In this document: positions 4,237 through 36,306 of the stretch, one piece after another
How positions within the stretch are numbered: position 1 is the first letter of the stretch
Layout: the number at the start of each line of letters is the position of its first letter
NCBI RefSeq assembly: GCF_000382185.1
Contig: NZ_KB907784.1
Location: forward strand, 2,744,633-2,808,632
Origin: Bordetella sp. FB-8
Lineage (GTDB): Bacteria; Pseudomonadota; Gammaproteobacteria; Burkholderiales; Burkholderiaceae_B
Length of the DNA stretch: 64,000 bases
Direction of reading: 5' to 3'
Program-made: the position numbers and the translations under genes
Notes under the pieces: model-generated
Database searches by the model: none
What the model was told of the DNA's origin: nothing
Seen by the model: only the letters and a program-made list of their open reading frames with translations

Positions 4237-4692
4237 TCAGAAGATAATAGGTAGAAAGCGGCCCGTCGTTTTCATATAGGCGTCATAGCTGGGAAATTTT
4301 TCGCACAACCAATGCTCTTCCAGCCTAGCCTTCACGAATAATACGCACAGCAGAATAGAAAATAATCCGAAAATAATCGCGCTTGGCTTGGAAAAAAAGC
4401 ACGCAATTCCGAAGATCAGGATCGAGGTATACATCGGGTGACGGATATGGCGATATACCCCGTGAACAACAAGTGAACCACCGGACTTCGGGCTGGGGTG
4501 AATATTGAAGTTACCAGGCCGGTTGCTAAATACCGCAGCAAATCCGACAGCAATTGAACTTAGAACAGCTATCCAAGGCAACAGATTTTCAGAACGCAAT
4601 GCTGGCAGTAGCGAGCTAAAAAAAATCAGAGCGAAAAGTAAGAAAAACTGTAAACCCACCAGTAGATATCCGTAAGCGTATCGATTTTTCAT
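4237..4692 (-). CDS. Isoprenylcysteine carboxyl methyltransferase (ICMT)-family membrane protein
   Basis: This 151-residue membrane protein has three or four helices and the ICMT/PEMT C-terminal signature: HGVYRHIRHPMY at about residues 79-90 and the downstream E-E-x-W-L...Y..Y...T-G-R-F-L-P block. Family members bind S-adenosylmethionine and methylate lipids or small molecules within the membrane. The substrate cannot be deduced. The gene is clearly AT-richer than the flanking chromosome, suggesting acquisition. It stands alone, between convergent and divergent neighbours with no operon partner. Confidence 0.75.
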   Translation of the reverse strand: MKNRYAYGYLLVGLQFFLLFALIFFSSLLPALRSENLLPWIAVLSSIAVGFAAVFSNRPGNFNIHPSPKSGGSLVVHGVYRHIRHPMYTSILIFGIACFFSKPSAIIFGLFSILLCVLFVKARLEEHWLCEKFPSYDAYMKTTGRFLPIIF

Positions 4693-20856: not shown

Positions 20857-20868
20857 CGCTTCGGATTC

Positions 20869-21420: not shown

Positions 21421-22523
21421 GAGGCTTGTCCCAGAAGGCTGTGCTTGGCGAACCGGTAATGAGCGACCAGCCACTGCTGGCCCTTGTCATAGCCGAAGAG
21501 TTCGGCGCAGGCCATCCAGAATATGCGCCAGCGCTGGAACCACAGCGGCGCCAGTGCGCTGCCGTAGACGCTCGCCAGCGTCTGCAGTACCTGGGTCCGG
21601 TGCCGGTCCTGATTGGCCAGCCAATCGTTGGCGGTACGCTGATAGTGCGTGCCGTCGACGATCCAGCGCGCCTCGATGCGCAGATGCTGCTGGAACCATA
21701 GCAGCGTATCGGCGGCCGGCATGATGCCGCCCGTGAAGAAATGCCGGCCCAGCCAGTTGTCGGCGCCGTCGGTCTCGAACGGATACATGAGGCTGCGGTG
21801 CGCGAATACGTGGACGAACAGCTTGCCCTGCGGCTTGAGCCAATCGCCGATGCGCGACATCAGCGCGGTGTAGTTGCGCATGTGCTCGAACATTTCCACC
21901 GAGACGCAGCGGTCGTAGGTGTCCGCGGTCAGGGACAGTACGTTGACGTCGCAGGTGATCACTTCGATATTGTCCAGGCCCAGGTCTCGGCTACGGGCCT
22001 GGATGAACTGTCGCTGCGACGAAGAGTTCGAGACCGCCGTGATGCGGGCATTCGGGAAATGCTGGGCCATCCAGAGCGTCAGCGATCCCCAGCCGCAACC
22101 GAGCTCCAGGATGCGCTGGCCGTCCTGCAGCTCGGCGCGCTCGGCGTAGAGCGCCAGCATTGCGTTTTCCGCCTCTTCCAGCGTCTCCCCGCCGGTGGGG
22201 TAGTAGCACCCCGAGTACTTCAGGCGCGCGCCCAGGCACAGATGGAAGAACTCGGGCGGCAGTTCGTAGTGCTGCGCATTGGCCTGCTGCGTGTGGATGG
22301 CCAGCGGGCTGCGGTTCAGTTCCTGGATCAGGTCCTGATAGCGGGTTGCCGTGTCGGATGCGCCTCCGATCCGTTCTTGGCGCAGGCGCTGTCTGCAAAG
22401 GCGCCGGATGCCATGGCGCACCAGCGCGTCGGGTAGCCATCCCTTCTCTGCAAGTCCAAGCAGGCCGGGTGCGGGAAGGTCGGCGGATAGCGGGGAGTCC
22501 ATCATGGTCGCGGTGCTCATCAT
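21417..22523 (-). CDS. SAM-dependent methyltransferase of the cyclopropane-fatty-acid synthase type (second copy)
   Basis: This 368-residue protein carries the S-adenosylmethionine site ILELGCGWGSLTLWMAQ and the CFA-family block HYELPPEFFHLCLGARLKYSGCYY, but it lacks the 120-residue N-terminal lipid-binding domain of true CFA synthase. It probably methylates an unsaturated acyl chain or a related lipid; proteins of this subgroup include UfaM, which initiates furan fatty acid synthesis. The start at 22523 overlaps the previous stop by ATGA; a longer frame to 23429 overlaps other genes and is rejected. The exact product is inferred. Confidence 0.85.
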   Translation of the reverse strand: MMSTATMMDSPLSADLPAPGLLGLAEKGWLPDALVRHGIRRLCRQRLRQERIGGASDTATRYQDLIQELNRSPLAIHTQQANAQHYELPPEFFHLCLGARLKYSGCYYPTGGETLEEAENAMLALYAERAELQDGQRILELGCGWGSLTLWMAQHFPNARITAVSNSSSQRQFIQARSRDLGLDNIEVITCDVNVLSLTADTYDRCVSVEMFEHMRNYTALMSRIGDWLKPQGKLFVHVFAHRSLMYPFETDGADNWLGRHFFTGGIMPAADTLLWFQQHLRIEARWIVDGTHYQRTANDWLANQDRHRTQVLQTLASVYGSALAPLWFQRWRIFWMACAELFGYDKGQQWLVAHYRFAKHSLLGQAS

Positions 22524-23314
22524 TGGCCTCGTTCTGAGTCGTCGGAGTGGGGGAACCAGGGAAAGAAACGTGCGGTCGTACGCTGGTATTGGCGGTAATC
22601 GTCCCCCCGGGTGCGCAGCGCCTGCATTTCGGTGTAGGGAATGCCGCTGATCCAGCGCAGGAAGATGTACATCGTCACCGGACCGAGCCAGCTGGCCGCT
22701 TGAATGGGCGACCCGGCGGCCAGCGCGGCATAGGCGAACCAGTGGCACCATTCGAAGAAATAATTCGGATGCCGGCTGTAGCGCCACAACCCATTCCGGC
22801 AGGCGCGGCCCTTGTTGCGCGGGTCGCGGCGAAAGCTTGCCAGCTGCCTGTCGGCGAGCGCTTCGCCCATTACCGAGACGATCCAGATCGCTATCGCGAC
22901 AATGAGCCAGGGCATTGCCGGGGTGACGGGATTGGCCGCCACGGCGGTAAAGGGAATGGCGAACAGCACCACCAGGCCGGCTTGAAAGGCGAACAGACCG
23001 TAGATTTTTCCCTGGTGCCCTTCCCAGCGGGCGCGCAAGGCCCCGTAGCGTCCGTCTTCGCCTTCGTCCAGGCGTAGCCAAAGATGCCATGCCAGCCTCA
23101 GCGACCAGATGCCGCCCAGGATGGCAAGCAGTGCGCGCGGCGTGGCAGCGCCGGTTCCTGTCGCCGCGATCAGCAGCGCTCCCAATCCCAGGCATGCCGA
23201 CCATACGATGTCGACGATGCCGATGTTGTGTTTCAGGCGTTGCCAGGCCCAGGCAGCGGACATCGCCGCCCAGGTCAGGATCGCCAGCAAACCCAGTTGC
23301 TGCCATGCGGTCAT
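22520..23314 (-). CDS. DUF1295 (steroid 5-alpha-reductase-like) membrane protein
   Basis: This 264-residue polytopic membrane protein of the DUF1295 family is related to steroid and enoyl reductases and to isoprenylcysteine methyltransferases. It shows YSRHPNYFFEWCHWFAYA at about residue 190 and IPYTEMQALRTRGDDY at the C-terminus, the conserved family signature. It sits between DUF2878 and the second methyltransferase gene, with ATGA overlaps on both sides (23311-23314 and 22520-22523). It probably reduces or modifies the acyl or lipid intermediate made by the operon; the reaction is not known. Confidence 0.87.
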   Translation of the reverse strand: MTAWQQLGLLAILTWAAMSAAWAWQRLKHNIGIVDIVWSACLGLGALLIAATGTGAATPRALLAILGGIWSLRLAWHLWLRLDEGEDGRYGALRARWEGHQGKIYGLFAFQAGLVVLFAIPFTAVAANPVTPAMPWLIVAIAIWIVSVMGEALADRQLASFRRDPRNKGRACRNGLWRYSRHPNYFFEWCHWFAYAALAAGSPIQAASWLGPVTMYIFLRWISGIPYTEMQALRTRGDDYRQYQRTTARFFPWFPHSDDSERGQ

Positions 23315-23865
23315 TGCGCACCTCCGTGGGATATCCGGGGCGCGGCATCGCCGGCAGACCACCGCGCGGCCAGGCTGGCCAGCAGGGGCAGTGCGATCCC
23401 CCATCCGGCAGCCAACCAGACCACGGCACGGCCCACCGGCGCTTCGAAGACCACGGACTGCCAGCCGCGCGATGCGCCCCAATAGGCTAGAGGTCCGCCT
23501 GCCAGGCCCAGTGCGCAGGCCCAAGCCGGACGCCCGCGCAGCCAGGCCATGGAATGGTTCAAGGTCATGGCAAATGCCACCCACAAGGCCAATATCCATA
23601 ACGGAGCGCCCGGTGGAACCGACAGGCCCGAGGCGGCATAGCGCAGCCAGCCCAGCGACGACAGTCCGCCGTCGATCAGCAGTCCGCAGAGCAGGGCGAT
23701 GCCCGACAGGCGCAGGTCCGCGGCACGCTGGTCCGAGGCCATGATCTGCCACGCCAGGAATACTGCGGCGCTTATGCAGCCCGGCAGTGCATCGCCACGG
23801 CCCGCGCCAATGACGGCAGCGAACCAGACGGCTTCATAGCCGAGGAAATTGGCCAGGGACTTCAT
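23311..23865 (-). CDS. DUF2878 membrane protein
   Basis: This 184-residue integral membrane protein has five or six helices and the DUF2878 motif DGGLSSLGWLRY near residue 68 plus LWVAFAMTLNHSMAWL. The family has no assigned activity but is regularly encoded with CFA synthase and DUF1365 in light-stress operons. Its start at 23865 overlaps the CFA stop by ATGA, and its end overlaps the DUF1295 start. The upstream in-frame ATG at 24000 would lie inside the CFA gene and is rejected. Confidence 0.85.
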   Translation of the reverse strand: MKSLANFLGYEAVWFAAVIGAGRGDALPGCISAAVFLAWQIMASDQRAADLRLSGIALLCGLLIDGGLSSLGWLRYAASGLSVPPGAPLWILALWVAFAMTLNHSMAWLRGRPAWACALGLAGGPLAYWGASRGWQSVVFEAPVGRAVVWLAAGWGIALPLLASLAARWSAGDAAPRISHGGAQ

Positions 23866-25178
23866 GCCGTAGACTCCGCTTTGCGCGCGGCCCACCCGCT
23901 GGCAGCGGGCTGTGCGCCGGGACGTGCGAACAGAAGGTGGGAAACGCCGATCGACCGTTCGCGAAAACCGCCCTCGCAGTAGGCCAGATAGAACTCCCAC
24001 ATGCGCGCGAACCGGTGGTCGAATCCCTGGGCGAGCACAGCGTCCAGTCGAACCAGGAAGCGCTCGCGCCAGGCTTGCAAAGTATGTGCGTAGGAAATGC
24101 CGAAATCTTCCTGGTGCACCAGGGCCATGTCCGAAGCCTGGGTTTTGGCCGACAGCATGCTCTGCACCGAGGGAATGAAGCTGCCCGGGAAGATGTGGCG
24201 CTTGATGAAATCGACCGAACGCAGCGCCTGCCGGTAGCGATGGTCCTCGATGGTGATGGCCTGCACCAGCGCCAGCCCATCCGGTTTGAGCAGCTCGCCG
24301 ATTTTTGCGAAATAGTTCTCCAGATATGGGGCGCCGATGGCCTCGACCATCTCGATGGAGACCAGCTTGTCGTACTGCCCCTGCAGATCACGGTAGTCCT
24401 GGCACAGGACCTGCACTTTGTCCTGTAAACCAGCCGCCGCAATGCGCGCTGTTGCCAGCGCATGCTGCTCCTTCGAAATCGTGGTGGTGACCACCCGGCA
24501 GCCATAGTGGCCGGCGGCATGCAGGGCGAAGCCGCCCCAGCCGCTGCCGATCTCCACCACCGTGTCCTGGGGTTGTAGATCCAGCTTGCGGCAGATGGTG
24601 TCCAGCTTGCGTGTCGATGCTTGTTCCAGCGTATCGCGCGGACCGTCCCACATGGCCGACGAGTACATCAGGTCGTCGGAGAGAAAAAGACGGAAGAAAT
24701 CGTTGCCCAGATCGTAGTGCTCCGCGATATTGCGGCGGCTGCCGGCGCGCGTGTTGCGTCGCAAGGCGTGCCAGCAACGCATGGCCAGGCCGCTGTAGCG
24801 TGCCAGTCCGGATTCCATTTGATCGAGCCGGTCACGGTTGCGTACGAGCAGGCGCACCAGCCCCACGAGATCGTCGCATTCCCAGATGCCGTCGCCGTAG
24901 GACTCGCCGGCGCCGACGCTGCCGCCCAGCGCCAGCTGGCGGTAGAACACGAGGTTGTGGACCACGACATGGATGCATAGGTCGGGGGCGTCGGCGCTGC
25001 GCACGCCCAATTCAGTGCGCGCCAGCGGATCGTCGATGATCAAGCAGCCGGCCTGAAGATCAGCCAGGTTTTTCAGGACCTGGCGGCGCAGCAACTGATC
25101 CAGCCAGCTTGCGAAGCGGGCATCGCTGCGCGTGGACGCATAGGCGTCCAGGTTCTTGTGAAGACTTGCCTGCGTCAT
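23862..25178 (-). CDS. cfa: Cyclopropane-fatty-acyl-phospholipid synthase
   Basis: This 438-residue enzyme transfers a methylene from S-adenosylmethionine to cis double bonds of phospholipid acyl chains. It has the full N-terminal lipid-binding domain (1-130), the AEHYDLGNDFFRLFLSDDLMYSSAMW block, the SAM motif EIGSGWGGFALHAA (about 185) and the family-typical DFIKRHIFPGSFIPS near residue 315. Both ends overlap neighbours by ATGA (23862-23865 and 25175-25178). Cyclopropanation protects membranes against oxidants and singlet oxygen, fitting the neighbouring light-stress genes. Confidence 0.95.
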   Translation of the reverse strand: MTQASLHKNLDAYASTRSDARFASWLDQLLRRQVLKNLADLQAGCLIIDDPLARTELGVRSADAPDLCIHVVVHNLVFYRQLALGGSVGAGESYGDGIWECDDLVGLVRLLVRNRDRLDQMESGLARYSGLAMRCWHALRRNTRAGSRRNIAEHYDLGNDFFRLFLSDDLMYSSAMWDGPRDTLEQASTRKLDTICRKLDLQPQDTVVEIGSGWGGFALHAAGHYGCRVVTTTISKEQHALATARIAAAGLQDKVQVLCQDYRDLQGQYDKLVSIEMVEAIGAPYLENYFAKIGELLKPDGLALVQAITIEDHRYRQALRSVDFIKRHIFPGSFIPSVQSMLSAKTQASDMALVHQEDFGISYAHTLQAWRERFLVRLDAVLAQGFDHRFARMWEFYLAYCEGGFRERSIGVSHLLFARPGAQPAASGWAARKAESTA

Positions 25179-25981
25179 TTACGGACTCCTGATTCCGTTG
25201 TGTCTTGCCTCGTGTGCTTGTGTACGGGATTGCGTTTGAGCCAAAGGCGCAGCGCCTGCCAGTAAATGGCGCCGATGACCTGGGTCGTCATGAGCGGATA
25301 GCGCCATAGCACGCGCGCCAGGGTCCTGCCGTTCAGCGGATGCCGCGTCATGGACAGGTCTGCGTCGAATTCGCACGTTCCGGCGTTCATCACTTTCATG
25401 TGTACCCGCAGCGCATCGTCGGGGGCGGTAAAGGACCAGTCGTACCCGCGGTCCATGGCCATGAAAGGCGAAACGTGGAAGTTCTTGGAAAACTGCCAGC
25501 GCATCGACGAACCTTGGTGTTCCGCGGTGGCTACCGGCAGCACATAACTGTGTCTTTGCGCCCAAGGGGTATTGGTGATATCGGCCACGATCGCCTGCAG
25601 TGTCGAGCCGTCGCTGGCGTAGCAGTAGTAGAAAGTCACCGGGTTGAACACGTATCCGCCATAGCGCAAGTGCGTCAGCATGCGGACGGGTCCTTCAACA
25701 TCTAGGCCGGCAGACTCGCGCACGCGTTCGCGTATCGCGTCGGCCAGCGGCCTTGCGCTGTCGCCGAAGTAATCGCTGCGCCGCCACTGGGCCAGATTGC
25801 GCCGGTTCACCGACCACAGCCAGCGGTGCCGGAAAACATGGTCCAGTTCGTCCAGATCGAGCATCAGCTGGGCGATCCGGTACGTAAAGGCGTGGGGGGC
25901 TGGCCCATGGCGCGCATGGATCACGCGGCCTTCGTAGACCGCACTGTGCAAGGCGTCCGGTGACGACGGGGCACGGTTCAT
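25175..25981 (-). CDS. DUF1365 protein
   Basis: This 268-residue cytosolic protein of the DUF1365 family has the conserved YEGRVIHARHGPAPHAFTY opening, the PVTFYYCY motif at about residue 118, and the FHVSPFMAMDRGYDW block at about residue 170. The family is found almost invariably between a NAD/FAD-binding oxidoreductase and CFA synthase, as here, and its biochemical role is unknown. Overlaps of 4 bases link it to both neighbours (25175-25178, 25978-25981), indicating strict translational coupling and probable complex formation or balanced dosage. Confidence 0.9.
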   Translation of the reverse strand: MNRAPSSPDALHSAVYEGRVIHARHGPAPHAFTYRIAQLMLDLDELDHVFRHRWLWSVNRRNLAQWRRSDYFGDSARPLADAIRERVRESAGLDVEGPVRMLTHLRYGGYVFNPVTFYYCYASDGSTLQAIVADITNTPWAQRHSYVLPVATAEHQGSSMRWQFSKNFHVSPFMAMDRGYDWSFTAPDDALRVHMKVMNAGTCEFDADLSMTRHPLNGRTLARVLWRYPLMTTQVIGAIYWQALRLWLKRNPVHKHTRQDTTESGVRK

Positions 25982-27276
25982 GCCGCGGTCTCCCGCACGC
26001 CGGCACCGGGTGCCGGCGCCGCGACTGACTTTCCTTGCGGTCCGCAGCCCAGTCCTTGCGCGACGTCCAGCGCGCTTCGCATGCCATCTTCATGAAAGCC
26101 CCAGCCCCAGTAGGCACCGGCGTACCAGGTGTGTCGATGGCCCGATATTTCGTGTTTGCGCGCCTGGGCCGCCACGCAGGCCGAGGTGTAGACGGGATGC
26201 TCGTAATGCATTCTGGCCAGGACGGTGCCAGGATCGATGTCTTCGGTGCGGTTCAGCGTGACGATGAACGGATGGCGCGAGTCGATGCCTTGCAGGATGT
26301 TCATGCAATAGCTCACGGTGCAATCGCCCGCCGGATGCGCGGGTACGTAGGCATTCCAGGCGGCCCATGCCTTGCGGTTGCGCGGCAGCACCGAGGCGTC
26401 GGTGTGCAACACGACGTCATTCGAGCGGTACGCGATGGCCCCCAGGATGTCCCGCTCGGCCGGGCTCGCGTCCTCGAGCAGGCGCAATGCCTGGTCGCTG
26501 TGGCAAGCCAGTACGACCTGGTCGTAGGTGTCGGTTCCTTCTGCGGTTGCAACCAGGACGTGATCGGGCATGCGCCGCAGCGACAGCACCGGATGGGACG
26601 GCATCTCACGCACCGACCAGCATCGGCGCAATGCGCCGATGTAGCGCGACGATCCGCCCTGCACGACGCGCCACTGCGGCCGGCCGGCCACTTGCAGCAT
26701 CTGGTGATTGGCCATGAACTGCACCAGGTAGCGGGCGGGAAAATCCATGATGCGCTGCGCCGGGGCAGACCACAGCGCGGCACCCATGGGGAGCAGATGG
26801 TCTTGCCGGAACGCGTCGCCGTAGCGGTTCCCGGCCAGATAGTCGCCCAGGGACGGTCCTGGCCCTGGCTGTCGCAGCAGATCCGGCGATTCGCGATAGA
26901 AGCGCCGCAGGTCCTTGAGCATGCCCAGAAAACGCGGCGATACCAGATTGCGCCGCTGGCAGAACAGGGTGTCCAGATTGGTCGCCGAGTACTCCAGGCC
27001 GCTCGCCGCGTTTTGCACGGAAAAACTCATCGACGTGGGCTGTGACGGTACGCCCAGCTCGTCGAGCAGTTGCGTGAACAGCGGATAGTTTTCCGGATTG
27101 AACACGATGAATCCGGTATCGATCGCGTAGTGACGGCCTTCCTGTTCGATCTGATGGGTATGGGTGTGGCCGCCCAGACGCCCGCCGGCCTCGTACAGAG
27201 TGACCTGGTGCTGGCCAGACAGCCAGTAGGCGCTGGCCAGGCCTGAGATGCCCGATCCGATGACGGCGATGCGCAT
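25978..27276 (-). CDS. FAD/NAD(P)-dependent amine-oxidase-type oxidoreductase
   Basis: This 432-residue flavoprotein starts with the dinucleotide fold IAVIGSGISGLASAYWL and the amine-oxidase second motif YEAGGRLGGHTHT. The C-terminus has WYAGAYWGWGFHEDGMRSAL, the FAD-closing motif. It is the conserved partner of DUF1365 and CFA synthase in light- and sigma-controlled operons. It may dehydrogenate an acyl chain or isoprenoid. I set the start at the ATG at 27276, two bases after the desaturase stop; the longer frame to 27633 lies inside the desaturase gene. The true substrate is undetermined. Confidence 0.9.
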   Translation of the reverse strand: MRIAVIGSGISGLASAYWLSGQHQVTLYEAGGRLGGHTHTHQIEQEGRHYAIDTGFIVFNPENYPLFTQLLDELGVPSQPTSMSFSVQNAASGLEYSATNLDTLFCQRRNLVSPRFLGMLKDLRRFYRESPDLLRQPGPGPSLGDYLAGNRYGDAFRQDHLLPMGAALWSAPAQRIMDFPARYLVQFMANHQMLQVAGRPQWRVVQGGSSRYIGALRRCWSVREMPSHPVLSLRRMPDHVLVATAEGTDTYDQVVLACHSDQALRLLEDASPAERDILGAIAYRSNDVVLHTDASVLPRNRKAWAAWNAYVPAHPAGDCTVSYCMNILQGIDSRHPFIVTLNRTEDIDPGTVLARMHYEHPVYTSACVAAQARKHEISGHRHTWYAGAYWGWGFHEDGMRSALDVAQGLGCGPQGKSVAAPAPGAGVRETAA

Positions 27277-27278
27277 AG

Positions 27279-28262
27279 TCAATCCTTGCCTTTGTTCAGT
27301 ACCCAGACGGGGATGGGCTTGAGATCCCAGATCAGGCCGGTCTTGCCCAGCAGCCACAGTCCGTACCAGGTCAGGTCTACTTCGCGGCGGCGAAACCCCT
27401 GGCGCGCCGAGCCGGGATAGAAGTGGTGGTTGTTGTGCCAGCCTTCGCCCAGCGTCAGCAAGGCCAGCCAGAGATTGTTGCGGCTGTCGTCCCCGGTATG
27501 GAAGCGGGCTTTGCCCAGTTGGTGCGCCAGGGAATTGATGCAGAAAGTCGCGTGATAGACCGCAACGGTGGAAATGCAGAATCCCCATACGGCCATTTGC
27601 ATGCCGCTGGTCCCCCAGCCGGGTGCCAGCCACCGCAGCATGGCGCCAAGTCCATACATCGAGGCCAGGACGGCCAGGGGAACGGTTATGTCATAGCGGT
27701 CCAGCCAGCGCAGTTCGGGATAGCTGCGCAAGTCTGGAACCCGGTCCCAGTTCGTGGAAAAGGCGCGCCGGGTGAGGAACCAGCCGGTGTGGCTGCGCCA
27801 AAAGCCACGCCGGACTGGCGAGTGCAAATCGGCGTGTGTGTCGGCATGGGCGTGATGGCTGCGATGATGCGCCGCCCACCACAGCGGGCCGCGCTGCACG
27901 CACGACGCGCCCAGTATCGCGAAAACGAACTGCGCCGCGCGCGAGGTGCGAAACGCACGATGCGAGAAATAGCGGTGATAAAAGGCGGTCAGAAAGAACA
28001 TGCGCATGACGTACATCGTCAGCGCCGTCGCCACGGCGACGGGCGAAGCGCCTACCCACAGCACGCCCAGGCATCCAGCATGGATCAAAAAGAAGGGAAT
28101 TGCCCGCGGCCAATCGATACGGTCCCGGCTGGCGTCGTCCATCGCCGGGTATTGGTCCGCTCCCTGGGTATCGAACCAGCGCCGTAATGGTGTGGTCCAC
28201 GACGCCTGGGCTTGTGTGGCGGCACGATTCTGTGGCGCTGGAGCTTCGCAGCGATTTTTCAT
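27279..28262 (-). CDS. Fatty acid desaturase (acyl-CoA/acyl-lipid delta-9 type)
   Basis: This 327-residue integral membrane di-iron enzyme has the three histidine boxes in order: HRYFSHR (96-102), HHRSHH (132-137) and HNNHH (about 277), with four hydrophobic helices. It introduces a cis double bond into fatty acyl chains, giving the substrate needed by the CFA-type enzymes encoded downstream. It is first in the nine-gene operon. GGATCTGA precedes the ATG. Desaturation followed by methylene addition fits a membrane-remodelling pathway. The positional specificity is inferred. Confidence 0.93.
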   Translation of the reverse strand: MKNRCEAPAPQNRAATQAQASWTTPLRRWFDTQGADQYPAMDDASRDRIDWPRAIPFFLIHAGCLGVLWVGASPVAVATALTMYVMRMFFLTAFYHRYFSHRAFRTSRAAQFVFAILGASCVQRGPLWWAAHHRSHHAHADTHADLHSPVRRGFWRSHTGWFLTRRAFSTNWDRVPDLRSYPELRWLDRYDITVPLAVLASMYGLGAMLRWLAPGWGTSGMQMAVWGFCISTVAVYHATFCINSLAHQLGKARFHTGDDSRNNLWLALLTLGEGWHNNHHFYPGSARQGFRRREVDLTWYGLWLLGKTGLIWDLKPIPVWVLNKGKD

Positions 28263-28339
28263 TTCAGATCCTGTCTGTGCTCGTTCTTGTGCTTTCTAAT
28301 ACGCACCGCAGTCCGGAATGGATGCGCTGGTGTAAACCC

Positions 28340-29137
28340 TTATTTTTCGATGCCGCACCGGGACACCAGCGGTTCGGTCTCTGCATGGTCGATCTGCAGC
28401 GCCGAGGGCGGACCATATCGTCTGTTGGCTGGAAATTCGATGCGCACTTGCTGCGTGTCGCCTTGATCGCTGTGGATGTTGCCGATGCCCTCGAAGCGAA
28501 GCAGGCGGCGCTCTTTTATCGAGTAGGTCACCTCGATCGAGGGGAGCACGAAGCCATACCACGCATTCAGGCTCAGCTTGAAGCGGCGCGCGGGCTGACC
28601 CTGGTACGTTGCATCGGAGGTGCGTATAGCCAGATGCAGGTATTTCAGCCGGCTGGGAACAAGGAACGCGACTTCGGTGTCCTGCCCGGCGCCGAGCGCC
28701 TTCCAATGGCTGCGCAGGTAGGCATCGAATCCCGCATCGATCACAGCGTTGCGCGGGGTCGGAAGTTGCGCGGTCCGGCGCGGCGCGCCGAGGCTGCTTC
28801 GCACATAAACCTGGCGCTCATCGCCACGGCCGGTCACGCCCTCGATGTAGCCGCTGCGGCTGTCCTCGAATTCGAAGTCCGGCGCGGCGTCCTCGATCCC
28901 GCCGTCCAGGCGTTCTCGGGCAAACGGCTTGCCGTTGGGGCAGCGATACAGCACGATGTGTTGCTGCGCGCCGCGATTGCGCACAACCCAATGTTCTTCG
29001 CTATAGACCAGCTTGCCGCCGTCGCGGGCGTAGGCCAGCCCCACGTAGTGCTGCGCGGCCGCTGCCGGTGCCGCGTGCGCCGCCGGCAGAAAATGGGCGG
29101 CCAGCAGTAGCGCGATGGGCCAATGCGTGATTCTCAT
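28340..29137 (-). CDS. Secreted protein of unknown function
   Basis: This 265-residue exported protein has a signal peptide ending AAHAAPAAAAQ at about residue 22. It is then mostly beta-strand-like, with motifs such as QHIVLYRCPNGKPFARERLD and a C-terminal HAETEPLVSRCGIEK; I do not recognise the family with certainty. The two cysteines at either end may pair in the periplasm. Its start overlaps the hydrolase stop by ATGA (29134-29137), so the two are one unit, and 77 bases separate it from the lipid operon. A lipid-linked periplasmic role is only a guess. Confidence 0.7.
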   Translation of the reverse strand: MRITHWPIALLLAAHFLPAAHAAPAAAAQHYVGLAYARDGGKLVYSEEHWVVRNRGAQQHIVLYRCPNGKPFARERLDGGIEDAAPDFEFEDSRSGYIEGVTGRGDERQVYVRSSLGAPRRTAQLPTPRNAVIDAGFDAYLRSHWKALGAGQDTEVAFLVPSRLKYLHLAIRTSDATYQGQPARRFKLSLNAWYGFVLPSIEVTYSIKERRLLRFEGIGNIHSDQGDTQQVRIEFPANRRYGPPSALQIDHAETEPLVSRCGIEK

Positions 29138-30003
29138 GATTGCGCCAGCCCGATTGCGGCCCCGCGACGCTTGCCCAGGAAAGCGCAGAGGTCCTGCAGC
29201 ACGGGAGCGCGCCAGCGCAGCGGGCGGGCCAGGGCACCCACGAGCATCTCGTGACCCAGCCCGCGATAGCGGATCGACTGGACATCGGCTTTCGCAGCCG
29301 ACAATGCCTGGGCAAGGCCGTCGGTATTGCGCCGTGGATCCACCATGCTGTCGGCCGAGCCCGCCATCAGAAGCGCCGGTGGCGCGCCGATATGCGCATG
29401 GACGACGGGTTGGGAGTCAGCGGGCGTGCGCGGGTAATGAAAGACCGGCCGGACCGTGCGGGTCTGGATGGGCAGGAAGTCGTAAGGACCCGCCATGCCC
29501 ACCCACCCGGCCAGCATGGCGGGCGACCCGCCATGGGCCTGTAACCAGCGTCGGTCCAGGGCGAGCATCGCCGCGTTGTACGCGCCCGCGCTGTGGCCCA
29601 CGAGATAGAGCCTCGCAGGATCGCCGCCGTAGGGGGCGCAATGCTGCGCAGCCCACGCCACGGCCTGGGCGCAGTCATGGAGAAAGTCGGGATAAGCCGC
29701 CTGGGGATAGAGTTGGTAATCGGCGATGACCGTGACATAGCCGCGCGAGGCGAGCGCGTCGCCCACGAACTTGTAGTCGGCGCGTGCGCCGCTGCGCCAG
29801 CTTCCGCCGTAGAAGAACACCACGACCGGCGCCCCGGCGGCACGCCACGGGATATAGATGTCCAGCTGCTGACGCGGTCCGCGGCCATAGGAAACGCCCT
29901 GGACGACCTGGCAGGCGTCTGCAGGGATGACGCCATTGATCAACGCCAGCGGCGAGCGCGTGGTCAATGCCTGCAGGGCTGCCCCGAGCCAGACGCTACG
30001 CAT
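29134..30003 (-). CDS. Alpha/beta-hydrolase (BD-FAE/esterase type)
   Basis: This 289-residue hydrolase has an oxyanion motif FFYGGSWRSG at about residue 62, the nucleophile elbow GHSAGAYN (Ser at about 137), an Asp in ADSMVDPR, and a His in RYRGLGHEM. It is an esterase or lipase of the feruloyl-esterase-like subgroup; the N-terminus has a hydrophobic stretch that may anchor or export it. It is first in the two-gene unit with the secreted protein. The substrate is not determinable; in this lipid-rich neighbourhood a lipid ester is plausible. Confidence 0.85.
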   Translation of the reverse strand: MRSVWLGAALQALTTRSPLALINGVIPADACQVVQGVSYGRGPRQQLDIYIPWRAAGAPVVVFFYGGSWRSGARADYKFVGDALASRGYVTVIADYQLYPQAAYPDFLHDCAQAVAWAAQHCAPYGGDPARLYLVGHSAGAYNAAMLALDRRWLQAHGGSPAMLAGWVGMAGPYDFLPIQTRTVRPVFHYPRTPADSQPVVHAHIGAPPALLMAGSADSMVDPRRNTDGLAQALSAAKADVQSIRYRGLGHEMLVGALARPLRWRAPVLQDLCAFLGKRRGAAIGLAQS

Positions 30004-30190
30004 GTGGATTCCCGGGTAAATTGAAAGTCGGGCTCATGATGTCCGTATATGAATCGACAGTACTATTTACGGACGGGGATCCGGTTTGGATGCGGTCGGC
30101 GGCGAAATTGTCCCGAATCCGTCTCGCAGGTCAGGACCGCCAGTCTCGCCAGCGGCCCGGCGTGACGAGGGCGCATGGGCTGGCGACCGG

Positions 30191-30916
30191 TCAGGTTCGT
30201 TTGGGCAACAGCGAGAAAAACTCGGAGCGCAGGCTCTTGTCTTGGAGAAATGCGCCGCGCATCACGCTGTTGACCATTTTCGACTGATCGTCCTTGACGC
30301 CGCGCCAGTGCATGCAGAAATGGTCGGCTTCAAGCACGAGGGCAACCCCCTTGGGAGCAAGCCGGGTCTCCAGCAGATCGGCAAGCTGCTTGATGGCCTC
30401 TTCCTGAATCTGCGGACGCGACATGATCCAGTGCGCCAGGCGCGCGTACTTGGACAGGCCGATGAGGTTGGAGTCCTGGTCGGGCAGCACGCCGATCCAC
30501 AGGCGCCCCATGATCGGGCACAGATGATGCGAGCAGGCGCTGCGCACGGTGATCGGTCCGACGATCATCAATTCGTCGAGTTGCTCCACATTGGGGAACT
30601 CGGTCACGCCCGGCACGGGTTCGTAGCGTCCGGCGAACGTCTCGCGCAGGAACATCTTGGCGACGCGCTTTGCGGTTTCGTGCGAGTTGTGATCGTTGTC
30701 GACGTCGATCACCAGGGACCGAAGCACCGATTGCAGGCGGGCGGCGACCTCCTCCTGCAGTTGATCGATTTCGCCTTCCCGCAGGTAATCGGAAATGTTG
30801 TCGTTGGCGTGAAAGCGTACGCCCGCGCTCAGCAAACGCTGCCGAATTCGCTGCGAAAGCGGCACATCCTCCGTCGCGGCGGTCATGGCAGGCATGGTTT
30901 TGACGATTGCATCCAT
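30191..30916 (-). CDS. folE: GTP cyclohydrolase I
   Basis: This 241-residue enzyme opens GTP to dihydroneopterin triphosphate, the first step of folate or pterin synthesis. The zinc-binding SACSHHLCP motif lies at about residues 128-136, and the second conserved block DHFCMHWRGVKD supplies the other cysteine. The start at 30916 has GGAGACA upstream. It lies 41 bases after the litR-like gene and is probably co-transcribed. In light-response operons, folE is thought to feed the pterin/deazaflavin antenna of photolyase or cryptochrome, so here it is likely an inducible second copy. Confidence 0.94.
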   Translation of the reverse strand: MDAIVKTMPAMTAATEDVPLSQRIRQRLLSAGVRFHANDNISDYLREGEIDQLQEEVAARLQSVLRSLVIDVDNDHNSHETAKRVAKMFLRETFAGRYEPVPGVTEFPNVEQLDELMIVGPITVRSACSHHLCPIMGRLWIGVLPDQDSNLIGLSKYARLAHWIMSRPQIQEEAIKQLADLLETRLAPKGVALVLEADHFCMHWRGVKDDQSKMVNSVMRGAFLQDKSLRSEFFSLLPKRT

Positions 30917-30957
30917 TTGATGTCTCCATTGTCGAGGCCCGTGGCGGGCCTCGCAGA

Positions 30958-31944
30958 TCACGACGGCCTTGAGTCCAGATGGCCCGCCGCCACGCGCTCC
31001 AATGCCGTTTCAAAGGCATGGCGTGCTTGGTTGGAAATATCGCCCAGCAACCGGTGAAGCATGCGGTCGGCAGGCGTTGCTATCGAACAGTTGTCGCTGT
31101 AGGTCTCGAATGCATCGAGTTGCAGGATCAATTCGACGATGTGCCGGGGGCACTCGCAGGTCACCGCCTGCGCCAGCCCCGTCATGGCCTTCAGTTCGCG
31201 CTCGTCAAAGCGCCTCTGGCGCCGGCCACCCCCGGGAGCAAGCGGTAGATCATCGATCGCGTCGCGGGCCAGGTCGCGCAGCATTTGGCGCATTTCGGAC
31301 CGGTTGGCGGGGCGGCGGTACAGACGCACGCCGGCCAGCTGCAAGCTGTCCGCCGCGCTGTTGGCGCCAAAGGCGTACACCACGGCAACGGCGCGGTAGG
31401 CCGCGCCGCGGATGGCTTGGACGATTTTTTCGGCTGTGTCGTCTTGCAGGCCGGAAATTTCGATGATCAGGATGTCGCCGGCCCGCTGCCCGAGCGTTTC
31501 CAGTTCTTGCAGGCCGGCGATCGTGGCGCCGATCTGCAATCCGCGCAGCTTGAGCTCCGAGCCATCGTCCCGGATGCGCTCGGCCAGAGCCTCGCCTACG
31601 ATGGCCAGATGCAGGTCTTGCCGTGCTTGTTTTGTGTGGGTCGGGGCGGCGTGATGCTGGGGCGCCGGATGCCCCCGGTCAAGCGAAGCCAACTGCGCAT
31701 CGTCGAACCGGGCAATCGAACCGATGGCATAGCCGCTGTCGACCAGCGACTTCAAAAGCGTCAGGCGCTGAACGTCCTGCTCCGAGTAGAGCCTCTGGCC
31801 CGAAGCGGTGGTCGGCGGCGCGACGATGCCGTACCTGCGCTCCCAGATGCGCAAGGTGGTCACGGGCATGCCGACCAGGCGGGCCGCCTGACCGCTGCGG
31901 TATCCGTGGTGGGTTTCGGTATCTGTGGCTTTGCTGCGTGTCAT
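30958..31944 (-). CDS. LitR/CarH-like MerR-family regulator lacking cobalamin motifs
   Basis: This 328-residue regulator has an N-terminal MerR helix-turn-helix (YRSGQAARLVGMPVTTLRIW, residues 15-34, then a wing to about 75). A linker leads to a Rossmann-like domain (about 110-225) that matches the B12-binding region of LitR/CarH in position. The helical-bundle W-x9-EH and the D-x-H-x-x-G cobalamin motifs are both absent. A C-terminal extension has Cys263-x-Cys265-Pro-x-His268 and Cys286, which could bind metal or an iron-sulfur cluster. The start is the ATG at 31944. It is presumably the light-responsive repressor of this locus and of itself. Confidence 0.87.
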   Translation of the reverse strand: MTRSKATDTETHHGYRSGQAARLVGMPVTTLRIWERRYGIVAPPTTASGQRLYSEQDVQRLTLLKSLVDSGYAIGSIARFDDAQLASLDRGHPAPQHHAAPTHTKQARQDLHLAIVGEALAERIRDDGSELKLRGLQIGATIAGLQELETLGQRAGDILIIEISGLQDDTAEKIVQAIRGAAYRAVAVVYAFGANSAADSLQLAGVRLYRRPANRSEMRQMLRDLARDAIDDLPLAPGGGRRQRRFDERELKAMTGLAQAVTCECPRHIVELILQLDAFETYSDNCSIATPADRMLHRLLGDISNQARHAFETALERVAAGHLDSRPS

Positions 31945-31986
31945 TGTGGGTTTGCTGGACGAATCGAGGTCGCGAGTATGATGCAA

Positions 31987-32015
31987 AATATATTCAATTT
32001 GAATCCAAATATCAA
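31987..32015 (-). promoter_or_regulatory. litR-like promoter with palindromic operator in the spacer
   Basis: On the minus strand, -35 TTGATA (32015-32010) and -10 TATATT (31992-31987) are separated by exactly 17 bases. The spacer contains the perfect palindrome ATTCAATTTGAAT (31992-32004), overlapping the -10. A MerR-type operator within the spacer is the arrangement used by many repressors of this family. The sequence match is direct; the function is inferred. Confidence 0.75.
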
Positions 32016-32022
32016 GAAAAAT

Positions 32023-32041
32023 TAGATTCAAAATGAATCTA
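32023..32041. promoter_or_regulatory. Second palindrome, candidate LitR-type operator for the photolyase-side promoter
   Basis: TAGATTCAAAATGAATCTA is a perfect 8-base palindrome around a 3-base centre, and it shares the half-site ATTCA-N3-TGAAT with the one in the litR promoter, 34 bases between centres. It ends at a possible plus-strand -10 (TATATT, 32040-32045), so it would occupy the spacer of the divergent promoter. No good -35 is visible. Confidence 0.7.
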
Positions 32042-32183
32042 TATTGTAAATTCTAATGGGAATTGGCAAAATTGACGCGGAAATAACGCTATAAATGAAT
32101 TCGAATAGTATATTGTCGACTTCATATTGACTCGTTTAATTTCGGGCGCGCTGCGGCGCAGGGCGCCTATCGAGAAATAAGCC

Positions 32184-32906
32184 ATGACTGCCTTGCGCCT
32201 CGTACTGGGCGATCAATTGAACCCGCTGCACAGCTGGTTCTCCCGGCGTGACACCGACGTCGTCTACATCTTGATGGAAGTGCGCCAGGAGACCGACTAT
32301 GTGGTGCATCATGCGCAAAAAATCATTGCCATTTTTGCCGCTATGCGCGAATTCGCCCGGACGCTGCTGGATGCGGGACATCGGGTTCACTACGTCGCGC
32401 TGGACGATCCGCGCAACCGCCAGTCTCTTGCCGCCAATCTTCGGCAACTGGTGGTGCAATACCAAGCGCGGTTGCTGGATTACCAGGCTCCGGACGAATG
32501 GCGGGTGGACCAGGAGCTGGCGGCCTTGTCGCGCGGCTCTTGCCTGCAGGTAACGCAGGTCGACAGCGAGCATTTCTATACCTCGCGCGTCGAATTGGCC
32601 CAGTTCTTCGGTGCGCGTGAAACCTGGCTCATGGAATCGTTCTACCGCCACATGCGCCAATGCACCGGTGTGCTGGTCGGGTCTGACGGCAAGCCGCGGG
32701 GCGGGCGCTGGACTTTCGATCACGACAACCGCAAGTCCTGGCGCGGCGATCCGCCCGTTCCGCAGGCGGCACTGCCCTTGCACGATCACAGTCCGCTTTG
32801 GCGCACACTTCAGGCACAGGGGCAGCTCGCGTCCTTGTCCGGCGATGCCCGCGCGGCGCTGCGCCAGCAGGCCGGGATTTGGCTCGATCGGATCGATGTA
32901 CTCTAA
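32184..32906 (+). CDS. Photolyase-related protein reduced to the N-terminal domain
   Basis: This 240-residue protein matches the N-terminal alpha/beta domain (DPRP, about 220 residues) of the iron-sulfur bacterial cryptochrome/photolyase group: LRLVLGDQLNP at the start, a YVVHHAQKI segment, and GGRWTFDHDNRKSW near residue 180. Full-length members exceed 500 residues because a FAD- and iron-sulfur-binding helical domain follows; here the frame stops about 60 residues after FDHDNRK, and no photolyase sequence remains in any frame before the next gene. The product cannot bind the catalytic flavin in the usual way, so it is a relic or a repurposed antenna-type protein. No clear RBS is present. 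Confidence 0.85.
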   Translation: MTALRLVLGDQLNPLHSWFSRRDTDVVYILMEVRQETDYVVHHAQKIIAIFAAMREFARTLLDAGHRVHYVALDDPRNRQSLAANLRQLVVQYQARLLDYQAPDEWRVDQELAALSRGSCLQVTQVDSEHFYTSRVELAQFFGARETWLMESFYRHMRQCTGVLVGSDGKPRGGRWTFDHDNRKSWRGDPPVPQAALPLHDHSPLWRTLQAQGQLASLSGDARAALRQQAGIWLDRIDVL

Positions 32907-32917
32907 GGCCTGCAATC

Positions 32918-33091
32918 ATGTCGTGCGCGGCAACCAAATTCAAAAAAGGCTTTTTGCCGGAAAAGCCCTGCGAACGATGCGGCCGCCCGATGCAATGGCG
33001 GCACAAGTGGGCTCGCCATTGGGACCAGGTCAAGTATTGCTCGGAACGCTGCCGGCGCCAGCGGTCAGAGGTGAACACACCGCGAGGGTAA
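32918..33091 (+). CDS. DUF2256 small zinc-ribbon-like protein
   Basis: This 57-residue protein has CERCGRPMQWRHKWARHWDQV followed by YCSERCRR, the complete DUF2256 signature: Cys18-x2-Cys21 and Cys41-x3-Cys45, likely a zinc site. DUF2256 genes usually sit beside photolyase/cryptochrome genes, as here (12 bases after the truncated photolyase gene, 5 before the lipocalin gene). The role is unknown; a partner in the iron-sulfur photolyase system is plausible. Confidence 0.87.
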   Translation: MSCAATKFKKGFLPEKPCERCGRPMQWRHKWARHWDQVKYCSERCRRQRSEVNTPRG

Positions 33092-33095
33092 GGCC

Positions 33096-33659
33096 ATGAT
33101 GAAATGCTTTCTTGCTCCGATGCGCGATCGGGTCCGCGCCATCGCGCTGGTATGGATGTGCGGCCTGCTGACTGCCTGCACGACGCAGGCGCCTGCGGGC
33201 ATCCAGCCCGTGCGTGGCTTTGACGCGCAGCGATACCTGGGCCGCTGGTATGAAATCGCGCGGCTCGATCACGCCTTCGAGCGTGGGCTGACCGACGTCA
33301 GCGCCACCTACGAAGCCCGAGGCGACTCAGGGCTGACTGTCATAAACCGGGGCTACGACGCATCGACCGCAACCTGGAAATCGGCCCGCGGCCGTGCCTA
33401 TTTCAACGGTCCGACCGATGTCGCATCGCTGAAGGTATCTTTCTTTGGGCCATTTTTCGGCGGCTATCACGTGGTGGCGCTGGATACGGACTATCAATGG
33501 GCAATGGTCGTTGGCAACGACCGCAGCTATTTGTGGATACTGTCGCGCACCCCGCAGCTTTCCGAGTCCGTCAAGGCCAGCCTCGTGGCGCAGGCAGACC
33601 GCCTTGGGTTCGATACCGGAAAATTGGTCTGGGTGCCCCAGACGCGGGCGGCTCAGTGA
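33096..33659 (+). CDS. Second Blc-type lipocalin lipoprotein
   Basis: This 187-residue lipoprotein has a signal peptide with lipobox LLTAC at about residue 27, then the lipocalin signature YLGRWYEIARLDHAFERG and the C-terminal YLWILSRTPQLSESVKASL. It is a paralogue of the operon lipocalin at 20869-21420 and lies on the photolyase side of the locus, 5 bases after DUF2256, presumably in one transcript. Two copies in a single light-stress locus suggest lipid trafficking is part of the response. Confidence 0.92.
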   Translation: MMKCFLAPMRDRVRAIALVWMCGLLTACTTQAPAGIQPVRGFDAQRYLGRWYEIARLDHAFERGLTDVSATYEARGDSGLTVINRGYDASTATWKSARGRAYFNGPTDVASLKVSFFGPFFGGYHVVALDTDYQWAMVVGNDRSYLWILSRTPQLSESVKASLVAQADRLGFDTGKLVWVPQTRAAQ

Positions 33660-33746
33660 ACGCGCTGCGGCGCCGGCGCATCCACAAGGCAGGCCTTCCT
33701 ACCTTTTGGATGCACGCGTGCGCCCTGGATACGGCCCGCGGCGAAA

Positions 33747-34436
33747 TCAGCTCAGAAGCACATCGCCGGTCATGACCACCGGGCCGGTCGGCTGGCCGGT
33801 GGGTGACCCGCCTTCAGGCTCCAGGCTGATGCCCAGCTTGCGGATACTCCCGGCGCCCCGGGGCAGCGTCAGCCTGGTCAGCCCGTTTGCAGCCACCAGG
33901 CCTAGCGATACAGGCTTGCCGCCAGGCGGCATCGACCACAATTGCAATGCGTGGCCGTCCGCCATTTTGGTCAGGTTGCCCAGTGTGGTCGCGTACATGC
34001 CCCCCGACGCGTCCGCGCGTATCACGAGAAAGGCCTGGCCCTGCTCGCTCTGTAGTACAGCCACCTGCTGGACCGGCTGGGTCCGGTTCAGCCACAAGGG
34101 CTGGATCACCGCCATGGCGATCAGCGCCACGGCCAGCGTCGCCGAGCACCAGCGCCAGAGGTATGCGCCATGCCAGCCCCAGTTCCTCATCCGATCGGGC
34201 GCTTTCTGGCGGATCTGCCCACGTATGGCACGCCAGACGCGATCCGAAGGCGTGATCGCAGGCATGGCCCAGACCAGCGCGTACAGGTCGTCCTCCCATG
34301 ACCGCACCTGGCGGCGCAGCGACGCATCGGCGGCCATGAGTCCTTCGAAACGGCGCCGGGCACCACCGCGCATCGCGCCGGATACGTAATCTGCCGCCAG
34401 CCGGGCGCGCAGTTGCGGATCGTCGTAGGTTTTCAT
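33747..34436 (-). CDS. Membrane anti-sigma factor (RskA-like)
   Basis: This 229-residue single-pass membrane protein has an N-terminal cytosolic sigma-binding helix region (about 1-85: LAADYVSGAMRGGARRRFEGL), a transmembrane helix at about 98-116, and a C-terminal RskA_C-like domain outside the membrane. The zinc-anti-sigma HxxxCxxC motif of ChrR-type proteins is absent, so this is not a ChrR relative. Its start overlaps the sigma stop by ATGA (34433-34436). It holds the cognate sigma inactive until a signal releases it. Confidence 0.87.
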   Translation of the reverse strand: MKTYDDPQLRARLAADYVSGAMRGGARRRFEGLMAADASLRRQVRSWEDDLYALVWAMPAITPSDRVWRAIRGQIRQKAPDRMRNWGWHGAYLWRWCSATLAVALIAMAVIQPLWLNRTQPVQQVAVLQSEQGQAFLVIRADASGGMYATTLGNLTKMADGHALQLWSMPPGGKPVSLGLVAANGLTRLTLPRGAGSIRKLGISLEPEGGSPTGQPTGPVVMTGDVLLS

Positions 34437-34981
34437 GACAGACACCTCTTGAGGCGCTCCATGCCTCGACGTACCCAGCTCTTGATCGTTCCCAGCGGCG
34501 AATTCAACCGGCTGGCGATCTCGCCGTGGCTCAGATCATCGAAAAATGACAAGGCGATCGCCATGCGCTGCTTGGACTCCAGTTGCGCCATGCAGTCGGC
34601 CAGGCGCTGGCTGTCTTGACGGCTGCGCAGCCGCTCCAGGGGACCCGCGGCCTCGTCGGCCCAGGCGTCCAGAATCGCGCCGTCCGGATCTGGCCGTTCG
34701 CAGTCCGGGCGGCGCAGCAGGTCGATACATCGATTGCGCACGATATGGGTCATCCAGGTCATGGCCTGGCTCTGCTCGGCCGAAAAGCGGCCAGCATTGC
34801 GCCAAATGCTGAGAAAGCTCTCCTGCAGCACTTCTTCGGCCAGGTCTTTACGCCTCACTATACGAGTGGCAAGCGCGAATAGATGCGGTGCGCTTAGCCG
34901 ATACAGCTCTTCGAGGGCTGTTTCCTGTCTTTGAGCGCACTGCCGGATCAGTTCATCCAGGCGCCGGGGATTTTCGGGCAT
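34433..34981 (-). CDS. ECF sigma factor
   Basis: This 182-residue sigma-70-family extracytoplasmic-function factor has sigma2 at about 22-90 (LYRLSAPHLFALATRIV, and DLAEEVLQESFLSIWRNA for -10 recognition) and sigma4 at about 120-178 (ALSFFDDLSHGEIASRLNSPLGT, quoted in part as DDLSHGEIASRL, for -35 recognition). It is co-translated with the membrane anti-sigma gene. Convergent with the photolyase-DUF2256-lipocalin unit, it is the obvious candidate second regulator of the light/photo-oxidative locus; similar pairs control CFA, photolyase and lipocalin genes in other proteobacteria. Confidence 0.93.
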   Translation of the reverse strand: MPENPRRLDELIRQCAQRQETALEELYRLSAPHLFALATRIVRRKDLAEEVLQESFLSIWRNAGRFSAEQSQAMTWMTHIVRNRCIDLLRRPDCERPDPDGAILDAWADEAAGPLERLRSRQDSQRLADCMAQLESKQRMAIALSFFDDLSHGEIASRLNSPLGTIKSWVRRGMERLKRCLS

Positions 34982-35039
34982 TGAAGATTCCTAGTCTGGC
35001 TAAAGTAGGGCGGCGTGACCGGCTTGCATTGCGGCAGGG

Positions 35040-35990
35040 CTATCGTAGTTTGCCCCAATCGGGTTCGCGTTGCGTCGCCTGTGATCGCCGGGTCGCGGCG
35101 TCGTACGCCTGCGCCTGTCCGAGCAGCCAAGAGCGAAAGAGCTCCAGCGGCTTGCCGTGGCTCAATTCCGTGGGGTAGACCAGATAGTAGGCCGAATCGA
35201 CCGGCGCACTGGCCTGAATGGGGATCATGATGCCGAGCTGTTCCAACTGGCCATCGACGAAGAATTTCGGCACCAGGGCGACACCCAGGCCGCTGGCCGC
35301 GCCGGCGATCAGCATGGTGTGCAGTTCGTAGCGCACGCCATGCATCGTCGAGTTGTCCTGGACGCCGTGGTGCGCGAACCAGGTGGCCCACGCATTCGGG
35401 CGGGTCGTCGAATGCAGCAGGGGGTAGTCCAGCAGGTCGCGGGCTTTCGTGACGGGGCGGGCCAGTAGCGAGCGAGCGCAGATCGGTACGACCTCCTCGC
35501 CAAAGAGGTAGTCGCAGGAGGTTCCCGGCCAGGTCGGCTTGCCGTAGTGGATCGCCGCATCGAAGTGCGATTCTTCGAACGAGAATATGCTGGTGCGCAC
35601 GCCCATGTTGACGCGCACATCGGGCGTGCGGTCGTTGAAGTCCTTCATGCGCGGGATGAGCCATTGCGAGGCGAAGGCGGGCAGGACCGCCAGCTCCAGG
35701 TAGCCGCCGCTGCTGCCGTGGGCGATGATGGAAAGCGTATCGCGGTCGAGCGCTTCGAGCGTGCGCCGCACCTGGGTGCCGTACAGGCGGCCTGCGCGCG
35801 TGAGCACGACGCGCTGCTTGGCGCGCACGAACAGCCGCACGCCCAGGTTCGATTCCAGCGTGGCGATCTGGCGCGAGACGGCGCTTTCCGTAAGGAACAG
35901 TTCCTTGGCGGCATGGGTGAAGCTTTCGTGGCGCGCGGCCGCCTCGAAAGCCGTCAAGGCTCCCATATTGGGGATTTTGAATTTCCTCAT
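35040..35990 (-). CDS. GcvA-like LysR regulator
   Basis: This 316-residue LysR regulator has the GcvA-type opening MGALTAFEAAARHESFTHAA and an HTH through about residue 70 (ESAVSRQIATLE). It is divergent from the binding-protein/ALDH operon, about 316 bases apart, and probably activates it in response to the imported amine or amino acid. A dyad at 36108-36126 in the shared region is a candidate site. Confidence 0.9.
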   Translation of the reverse strand: MRKFKIPNMGALTAFEAAARHESFTHAAKELFLTESAVSRQIATLESNLGVRLFVRAKQRVVLTRAGRLYGTQVRRTLEALDRDTLSIIAHGSSGGYLELAVLPAFASQWLIPRMKDFNDRTPDVRVNMGVRTSIFSFEESHFDAAIHYGKPTWPGTSCDYLFGEEVVPICARSLLARPVTKARDLLDYPLLHSTTRPNAWATWFAHHGVQDNSTMHGVRYELHTMLIAGAASGLGVALVPKFFVDGQLEQLGIMIPIQASAPVDSAYYLVYPTELSHGKPLELFRSWLLGQAQAYDAATRRSQATQREPDWGKLR

Positions 35991-36306
35991 GGTGCGTCCG
36001 TGTATTCATCGAATGGCCGGCCCGGCGCCGCCCGGCGGGCACTGGGGTATCTCCCTATGCCTTGCGCAGGGGGTAGGTATCGCCGATTTATCCCGATTTT
36101 ATAAGCGTGATGATTAAAACTCATCAGGTTGTGCATAGATATCGGTTGATGCGGGCCTGCGGGCTACCCACAATCGACCCAAATCCTCGTCACAGGTGCT
36201 TGTGATGCTGCGTCGTCGGATGGGAGATGGATTGCGCGCGCCAGAGCCGCCACAGCAGTTCTGGCGTGCCCTGGTGTCTACGATGGATAACAAAGGAATC
36301 TTCACC
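35991..36306. other. Divergent promoter region of the lysine/pipecolate-type operon
   Basis: These 316 bases hold no supportable gene. The part near 36070-36130 is AT-rich and contains the dyad described separately; the part near 36290 carries the binding-protein Shine-Dalgarno (AAAGGAA). Nothing further was recognised. Confidence 0.6.
36108..36126. promoter_or_regulatory. Dyad TGATGA-N7-TCATCA, candidate LysR box
   Basis: TGATGA (36108-36113) and TCATCA (36121-36126) are perfect inverted arms with an AT-rich 7-base centre, in the middle of the divergent regulator-operon region. Spacing and symmetry fit a LysR-type site. Confidence 0.5.

Follow-up and report, generated by a model that had tools for sequence, protein, structure and literature searches.

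An in-frame internal deletion in a (6-4) photolyase gene at a light-response-type locus of Bordetella sp. FB-8

In the window, the whole 64,000-nucleotide stretch of Bordetella sp. FB-8 DNA analysed here, the gene at 32184-32906 is an iron-sulfur-type (6-4) photolyase gene with an internal in-frame deletion, and both of its ends are kept. The frame on the forward strand starts with ATG and encodes 240 aa. Residues 5-210 match the Pfam family DPRP (E 2.5e-69), the antenna domain of iron-sulfur (6-4) photolyases, and the N-terminal DPRP alpha/beta part of these enzymes is thereby present in the 240-residue protein; its length, in contrast, falls far short of the normal ~509 residues (508-516 in the 80 nearest relatives kept). 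DPRP was the only Pfam family detected in the protein at E 0.001, where a lumazine-binding riboflavin-synthase domain was not found, and this frame is the only DPRP match in the whole 4.08-Mb genome. The FAD-binding helical catalytic domain is absent, with residues 214-482 of the nearest full-length relative (L005) unmatched in the frame. Four near-invariant cysteine columns of the catalytic half (351, 439, 442 and 455 in alignment A1), which we take to be the ligands of the 4Fe-4S cluster, all lie within the deleted stretch. Since the FAD- and iron-sulfur-binding domain is gone, the 240-residue product is not expected to work as a photolyase, given the structures of the family. A preliminary description of this DNA had recognised an iron-sulfur photolyase N-terminus at 32184, the loss of the FAD/4Fe-4S half from the frame and a DUF2256 gene right behind it, and these three observations hold; the ATG of DUF2256 is at 32918, 11 bases past the stop codon.

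The comparison with L005, which is encoded on a contig from a metagenome-assembled genome labelled Bordetella sp., defines the deletion. Apart from one weak chance segment, BLASTP returned two segments, which pair window residues 1-213 with L005 residues 1-213 (71% identity) and window residues 214-240 with L005 residues 483-509 (59% identity, E 6e-6). Residue 213 is thus followed directly by what are normally the last 27 of ~509 residues. The loss relative to L005 is 807 nt, or 269 codons, and is a multiple of three, although chance alone keeps the frame one time in three. A breakpoint scan against L005 leaves the placement of the junction at 32820-32822 ambiguous by 2 bases. When the 27-residue tail was scanned ungapped along the 80 full-length relatives, the extreme C-terminus was the best placement in 78, and the mean score there was 31.4, versus 10.4 at the best other place and -10.4 at the contiguous position. 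Since the tail matches the C-terminal end of the family, a plain C-terminal truncation is ruled out. The earlier statements that the frame stops short, and that no trace of the missing half occurs in any frame, were thus not borne out; the last 27 residues of the full-length protein are present in the same frame. The features of the locus are listed in Table 1.

Table 1 Features of the photolyase locus, with positions in the window
Feature	Position	Strand	Basis or remark
folE-like gene, GTP cyclohydrolase I	30191..30961	-	Pfam GTP_cyclohydroI E 7.9e-42, above cut-off; adjoins the regulator
LitR-like MerR regulator	30958..31944	-	Pfam MerR families only; divergent from the photolyase gene
Two palindromes, GAYTCANNNTGARTC	31991-32005 (one mismatch), 32025-32039 (exact)		Regulator/photolyase promoter region
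Retained N-terminal part of the (6-4) photolyase / FeS-BCP gene, 213 codons	32184..32822	+	Alpha/beta antenna domain plus the stretch beyond it
Deletion junction	32820..32822	+	807 nt of L005 absent, frame kept; best breakpoint scan, three equal placements
Retained C-terminal end of the photolyase gene, 27 codons + stop	32823..32906	+	BLASTP to L005 483-509
DUF2256, small cysteine-rich protein	32918..33091	+	Pfam DUF2256 E 1.1e-19
Lipocalin-family protein	33096..33659	+	Pfam Lipocalin_2 E 1.1e-41; 89% identical in sister genome G013
Anti-sigma factor (RskA_C)	33747..34445	-	Pfam E 4.6e-25
ECF sigma factor	34433..34981	-	NCBIfam TIGR02937 sigma70-ECF, above cut-off

All of the 80 nearest relatives kept, out of 372 confirmed, are full length as measured from the homologous start, and the 240-residue length, proposed earlier as a test of whether most relatives share it, occurs in none of them. 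In the family survey, 67 of the 268 genomes gave a match; the frame in the window is the sole short one, and the next shortest has 369 codons. A protein search over eligible lengths of 132-420 gave 409 matches, 120 of them listed, with the window protein as a one-member cluster. Among these 120 listed matches, the C-terminal tail of the family was found only in the window protein (score 32.9) and in P0104 (26.4); the next score was -3.8, and the background maximum was -5.1 in 5000 draws. P0104 is a 371-residue FeS-BCP in which an in-frame internal loss is likewise joined to the same C-terminal tail. Its deletion is, however, separate and smaller, has a different left end and belongs to another lineage. 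Since P0104 carries such a loss, in-frame internal losses occur elsewhere in the FeS-BCP family too, and none among the matches listed has the junction of the window protein. Thirteen short proteins among the 120 listed, on contigs of at least 5 kb, were inspected by eye, and the C-terminal tail was absent from them; several enter unrelated sequence after the homologous start, and others simply end. A widespread DPRP-only family of this architecture was rejected, with no member in the relatives, the family survey or the matches listed (lengths 132-420). A photolyase match was found in 80 plasmid records, always at <60% identity. Literature on photolyase gene loss, pseudogenes and truncated antenna proteins, searched at summary level, held nothing on this locus.

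The missing half does not appear to have moved. A search of the whole genome with the excised 268-residue piece gave no clear copy, the best match having an E value of 0.07 at 30% identity, and translocation elsewhere in the genome was rejected accordingly. The genome has a second photolyase (PF03441), which is intact near G000:C1:455568 and has 509 residues from its ATG.

The same locus is recognisable in two sister genomes. Among the 15 genomes of the genus, the photolyase has a match in three, that of the window (G000), G012 (71%) and G003 (35%), and the regulator in five; outside G000, regulator identities of at least 85% are confined to G012 (86%) and G013 (85%). In both sisters the regulator, folE and the anti-sigma gene are still present, with protein identities of 85-93%, and the ECF sigma factor is 97% identical in G012; the assemblies are only partly complete, at 73% for G012 and 77% for G013. 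In G013, contig C54 (L140) aligns with window positions 27847-32018 and then again from 33073, and since the alignment blocks skip 32018-33073, the photolyase and DUF2256 genes have been lost there. The ~205 bases between the blocks hold a clear scar of the photolyase gene at about 4290-4382. This scar represents approximately codons 21-57 and matches window positions 32246-32351 with a score of 91, versus at most 36.5 elsewhere in the window; the lipocalin gene follows closely, and DUF2256 is gone. In G012, contig C120 matches window positions 38970 down to 33738 and resumes at 32044; the photolyase, DUF2256 and lipocalin genes between these blocks are gone at the locus. Within the gap, 77 bases are similar, in collinear order, to the first ~18 codons of the photolyase gene and the region upstream of them. 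The score of this match, 46, exceeds the maximum of 35 in 2000 shuffles, yet another place in the window reaches 43, and an initial test of the gap with a broader scope stayed below the shuffle maximum (37 versus 54.5). We consider that G012 probably keeps a photolyase scar as well, with moderate support.

G012 also has a full-length photolyase gene with DUF2256 at another place, on contig C567 (the L005 sequence, also L142), and loss of the function is thus not uniform across the clade. The gene ahead of this photolyase is presumably EamA-like, as judged by eye. The upstream part of C567 is 82% identical to contig C63 of G013, in which no photolyase was found at the place next to EamA. The dS of the C567 photolyase to the window is 0.83, approximately double the values of 0.44 and 0.49 for the regulator and 0.36 for the other photolyase. 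The C567 gene may have been relocated, may be a horizontal replacement or may sit on a contaminant contig. The contig also carries what looks like the start of a lipocalin gene. In G003 (L147), the divergent (35%) DPRP gene has DUF2256 adjoining, and two LitR-like genes and folE lie within 12 kb.

The retained part has no excess of private changes over an intact homologue. Of 195 assessable sites polarised against the Achromobacter majority (L006, L007, L016 and L026), 10 carry a replacement private to the window protein and 11 one private to L005, and 53 differ in both; against a broad consensus the numbers are 12 and 16. At positions conserved in at least 90% of sequences, the window protein departs at 5 and L005 at 6. 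Since the median is 2 in the 81 rows, of which 12 reach 5 or more, both sequences are somewhat divergent. The N-terminal part has a dN/dS of 0.25 versus L005, which indicates purifying selection overall; in the short tail, synonymous changes have reached saturation. In simulations, 10 or fewer private changes were seen in 6% of runs after a functionless phase of 0.02 substitutions per site, in 1.5% after 0.03, in 0.15% after 0.05 and in none of 2000 runs after 0.1. A functionless phase of at least 0.03 substitutions per site is thus unlikely (P <=0.015 by simulation), in a rate test that depends on L005, a gene at a different locus with a divergence above that of other genes. Since there is no excess of private changes, the deletion must be very young if the gene is useless, at approximately 0.02-0.03 neutral substitutions per site. 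The branch since the sister split is ~0.2 per lineage (half of dS 0.36-0.49). A useless gene would therefore have suffered its deletion within roughly the last tenth of the time since that split; otherwise the N-terminal domain is still under selection. We weigh a young, useless gene above continued selection because both sisters lost the gene here.

The neighbouring genes resemble those of a light-response locus. On the regulator side of the photolyase gene are folE, alpha/beta hydrolase, desaturase and FAD oxidase genes, and on the other side are the DUF2256, lipocalin, anti-sigma and ECF sigma genes. A tblastn match to DUF2256 was found in 45 of the 80 relatives' loci, some of which are short, and DUF2256 is thus often encoded near photolyase; our search found no literature on the two together. 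The regulator, whose frame could alternatively start upstream at 32031, is called LitR-like after the preliminary description. No B12-binding domain was found in it by Pfam, and the NCBIfam CarH model covers only its HTH, far under the cut-off (35.9 versus 400 bits). The folE-like gene is hit by four NCBIfam FolE models below their cut-offs. The preliminary description named lipocalins, in the plural, among the partner genes; one lipocalin was found in the ten proteins scanned by Pfam. A second LitR-like regulator, of 39% identity, lies in the same genome at G000:C1:2979065-2980018. Rfam at gathering scores gave no match in 25000-36000. The palindromes at 31991-32039 may be operators of the LitR-like regulator. 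They are the only matches to GAYTCANNNTGARTC with at most one mismatch in the 64 kb, where 0.28 are expected, and two matches were reached in 2 of 100 shuffles; the pattern was derived from the exact site itself. Genes on the reverse strand at 20000-28300 are presumably cyclopropane/furan fatty-acid synthases, DUF1365, FAD oxidase and desaturase, as judged by eye, and this run resembles the ufaM part of Pseudomonas LitR regulons. Since the Pseudomonas LitR regulon includes phrB, ufaM, folE and cryB, according to the accessible text of PMC9758184, the locus in the window resembles a known light-response locus.

Taken together, the gene is most likely a freshly inactivated (6-4) photolyase gene that became a still translatable pseudogene by an in-frame internal deletion. 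The loss of 269 codons has removed the FAD- and iron-sulfur-binding domain from the only DPRP/FeS-BCP-type gene of the genome, and the promoter, DUF2256 and the LitR-like regulator remain, probably because there has been too little time for further decay. Since the junction is nearly repeat-free, as judged against L005 only, from which the ancestor may differ, illegitimate recombination or slippage seems to have made the deletion rather than repeat-mediated recombination. The loss may be tolerable, with the other photolyase intact and the gene lost at the same place in both locus-sharing sisters. The event is most likely a fairly ordinary gene decay, with the gene being lost from this locus in the lineage. 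The frame, intact over 240 codons, and the N-terminal dN/dS speak against decay and also fit a protein in use. Of the two possibilities raised earlier, the young internal deletion is supported by the junction, the 807 bp lost with the frame intact, the two ends kept, the lack of excess private changes and the absence of an orthologue of like architecture among the relatives, the family survey and the matches listed.

The other possibility, that an antenna-only protein was retained and took on a new function, has found no positive evidence, and we regard it as improbable. Here the product would be a selected mini-protein, a free-standing N-terminal domain that folds on its own, binds 6,7-dimethyl-8-ribityllumazine (DMRL) and, with no catalytic flavin, absorbs blue light for signalling or quenching or as a partner of DUF2256 or the LitR-like regulator, which would still control its gene. 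For PhrB, the accessible text of PMC9178010 puts DMRL absorption near 410 nm and emission at 475-485 nm. The same text mentions 21 sites and names 13 residues of the PhrB DMRL pocket (L8, G9, D10, E33, E37, Y40, V41, G42, H43, K47, I51, M55 and R108). Twelve of these 13 are identical in the window protein, and the remaining one, Gly42 of PhrB, corresponds to V41 of the window protein, at the X of the Y-V-X-H motif. The predicted structure resembles FeS-BCP structures best, and 8 of its first 10 ten-residue blocks have pLDDT values of 80-95. The absence of excess private replacements, the intact frame and the intact candidate operators are also in favour. However, every one of these points, including the conservation of the pocket, is equally expected from a very young deletion. 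Confidence in the model drops just around the pocket, to pLDDT 66 and 61 in the strand and loop of residues 31-50, and is poor (34-53) for residues 171-200 and for the tail; since alignment A3, from which it was built, leaves the tail without relatives, the low values there are no evidence about the tail. In the Vibrio enzyme, a further DMRL contact comes from residue 488 in the C-terminal part, according to the accessible text of PMC9852545. Its counterpart would fall close to the junction and is possibly absent from the window protein, as far as the numbering in that text, which fits the chain inexactly, allows. The junction occurs in no other protein among the relatives, the family survey and the matches listed, and both sister genomes are without photolyase and DUF2256 at the locus.

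It is less probable still that the gene was collapsed or mis-joined in sequencing or assembly and that the organism has an intact copy. The deletion is known from one genome and one cluster member, as such an artefact would be, but the frame is kept, the ends are clean on both sides within a 4.08-Mb contig, a search of the assembly did not recover the missing piece, and the sisters are also without the gene at the locus. Least probable of all is an old, drifting pseudogene whose function was lost before the split from G012 and G013: the loss at the same place in the sisters and the departures at conserved positions (although L005 has one more) would fit, but a neutral phase of 0.1-0.2 predicts a mean of 25-43 added private replacements, where 10 versus 11 were seen, and a stop codon in ~89-98% of simulations, where the window has none.

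The case provides a snapshot of how a (6-4) photolyase is lost from a light-response-type locus: one genome carries an in-frame internal deletion, and two sisters have lost nearly the whole gene at the same spot, with a clear scar in one and a probable scar in the other. It also cautions that short DPRP proteins should not be taken for new photoreceptors. Should the mini-protein prove to bind lumazine and to be retained, it would represent the antenna domain of a photolyase isolated in nature.

Like PhrB of Agrobacterium (4DJA), CryB of Rhodobacter (3ZXS) and the Vibrio enzyme (7YKN/8A1H), the window protein has the alpha/beta antenna domain and the DMRL-pocket residues, and its last 27 residues are homologous to the C-terminal end of FeS-BCPs, the prokaryotic (6-4) photolyases. 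Unlike these three proteins, it has lost 269 codons, and with them the helical domain that binds FAD, the catalytic centre and the conserved cysteines of the catalytic half. The locus itself shares a LitR-like MerR regulator, folE, a cryB-type photolyase gene and fatty-acid-modifying genes with the LitR loci described in the accessible text of PMC9758184, namely the PplR/PmlR regulons of Pseudomonas and LitR of Burkholderia. In contrast to those loci, the cryB-type gene in the window is internally deleted, and the LitR class is here a label rather than a model match.
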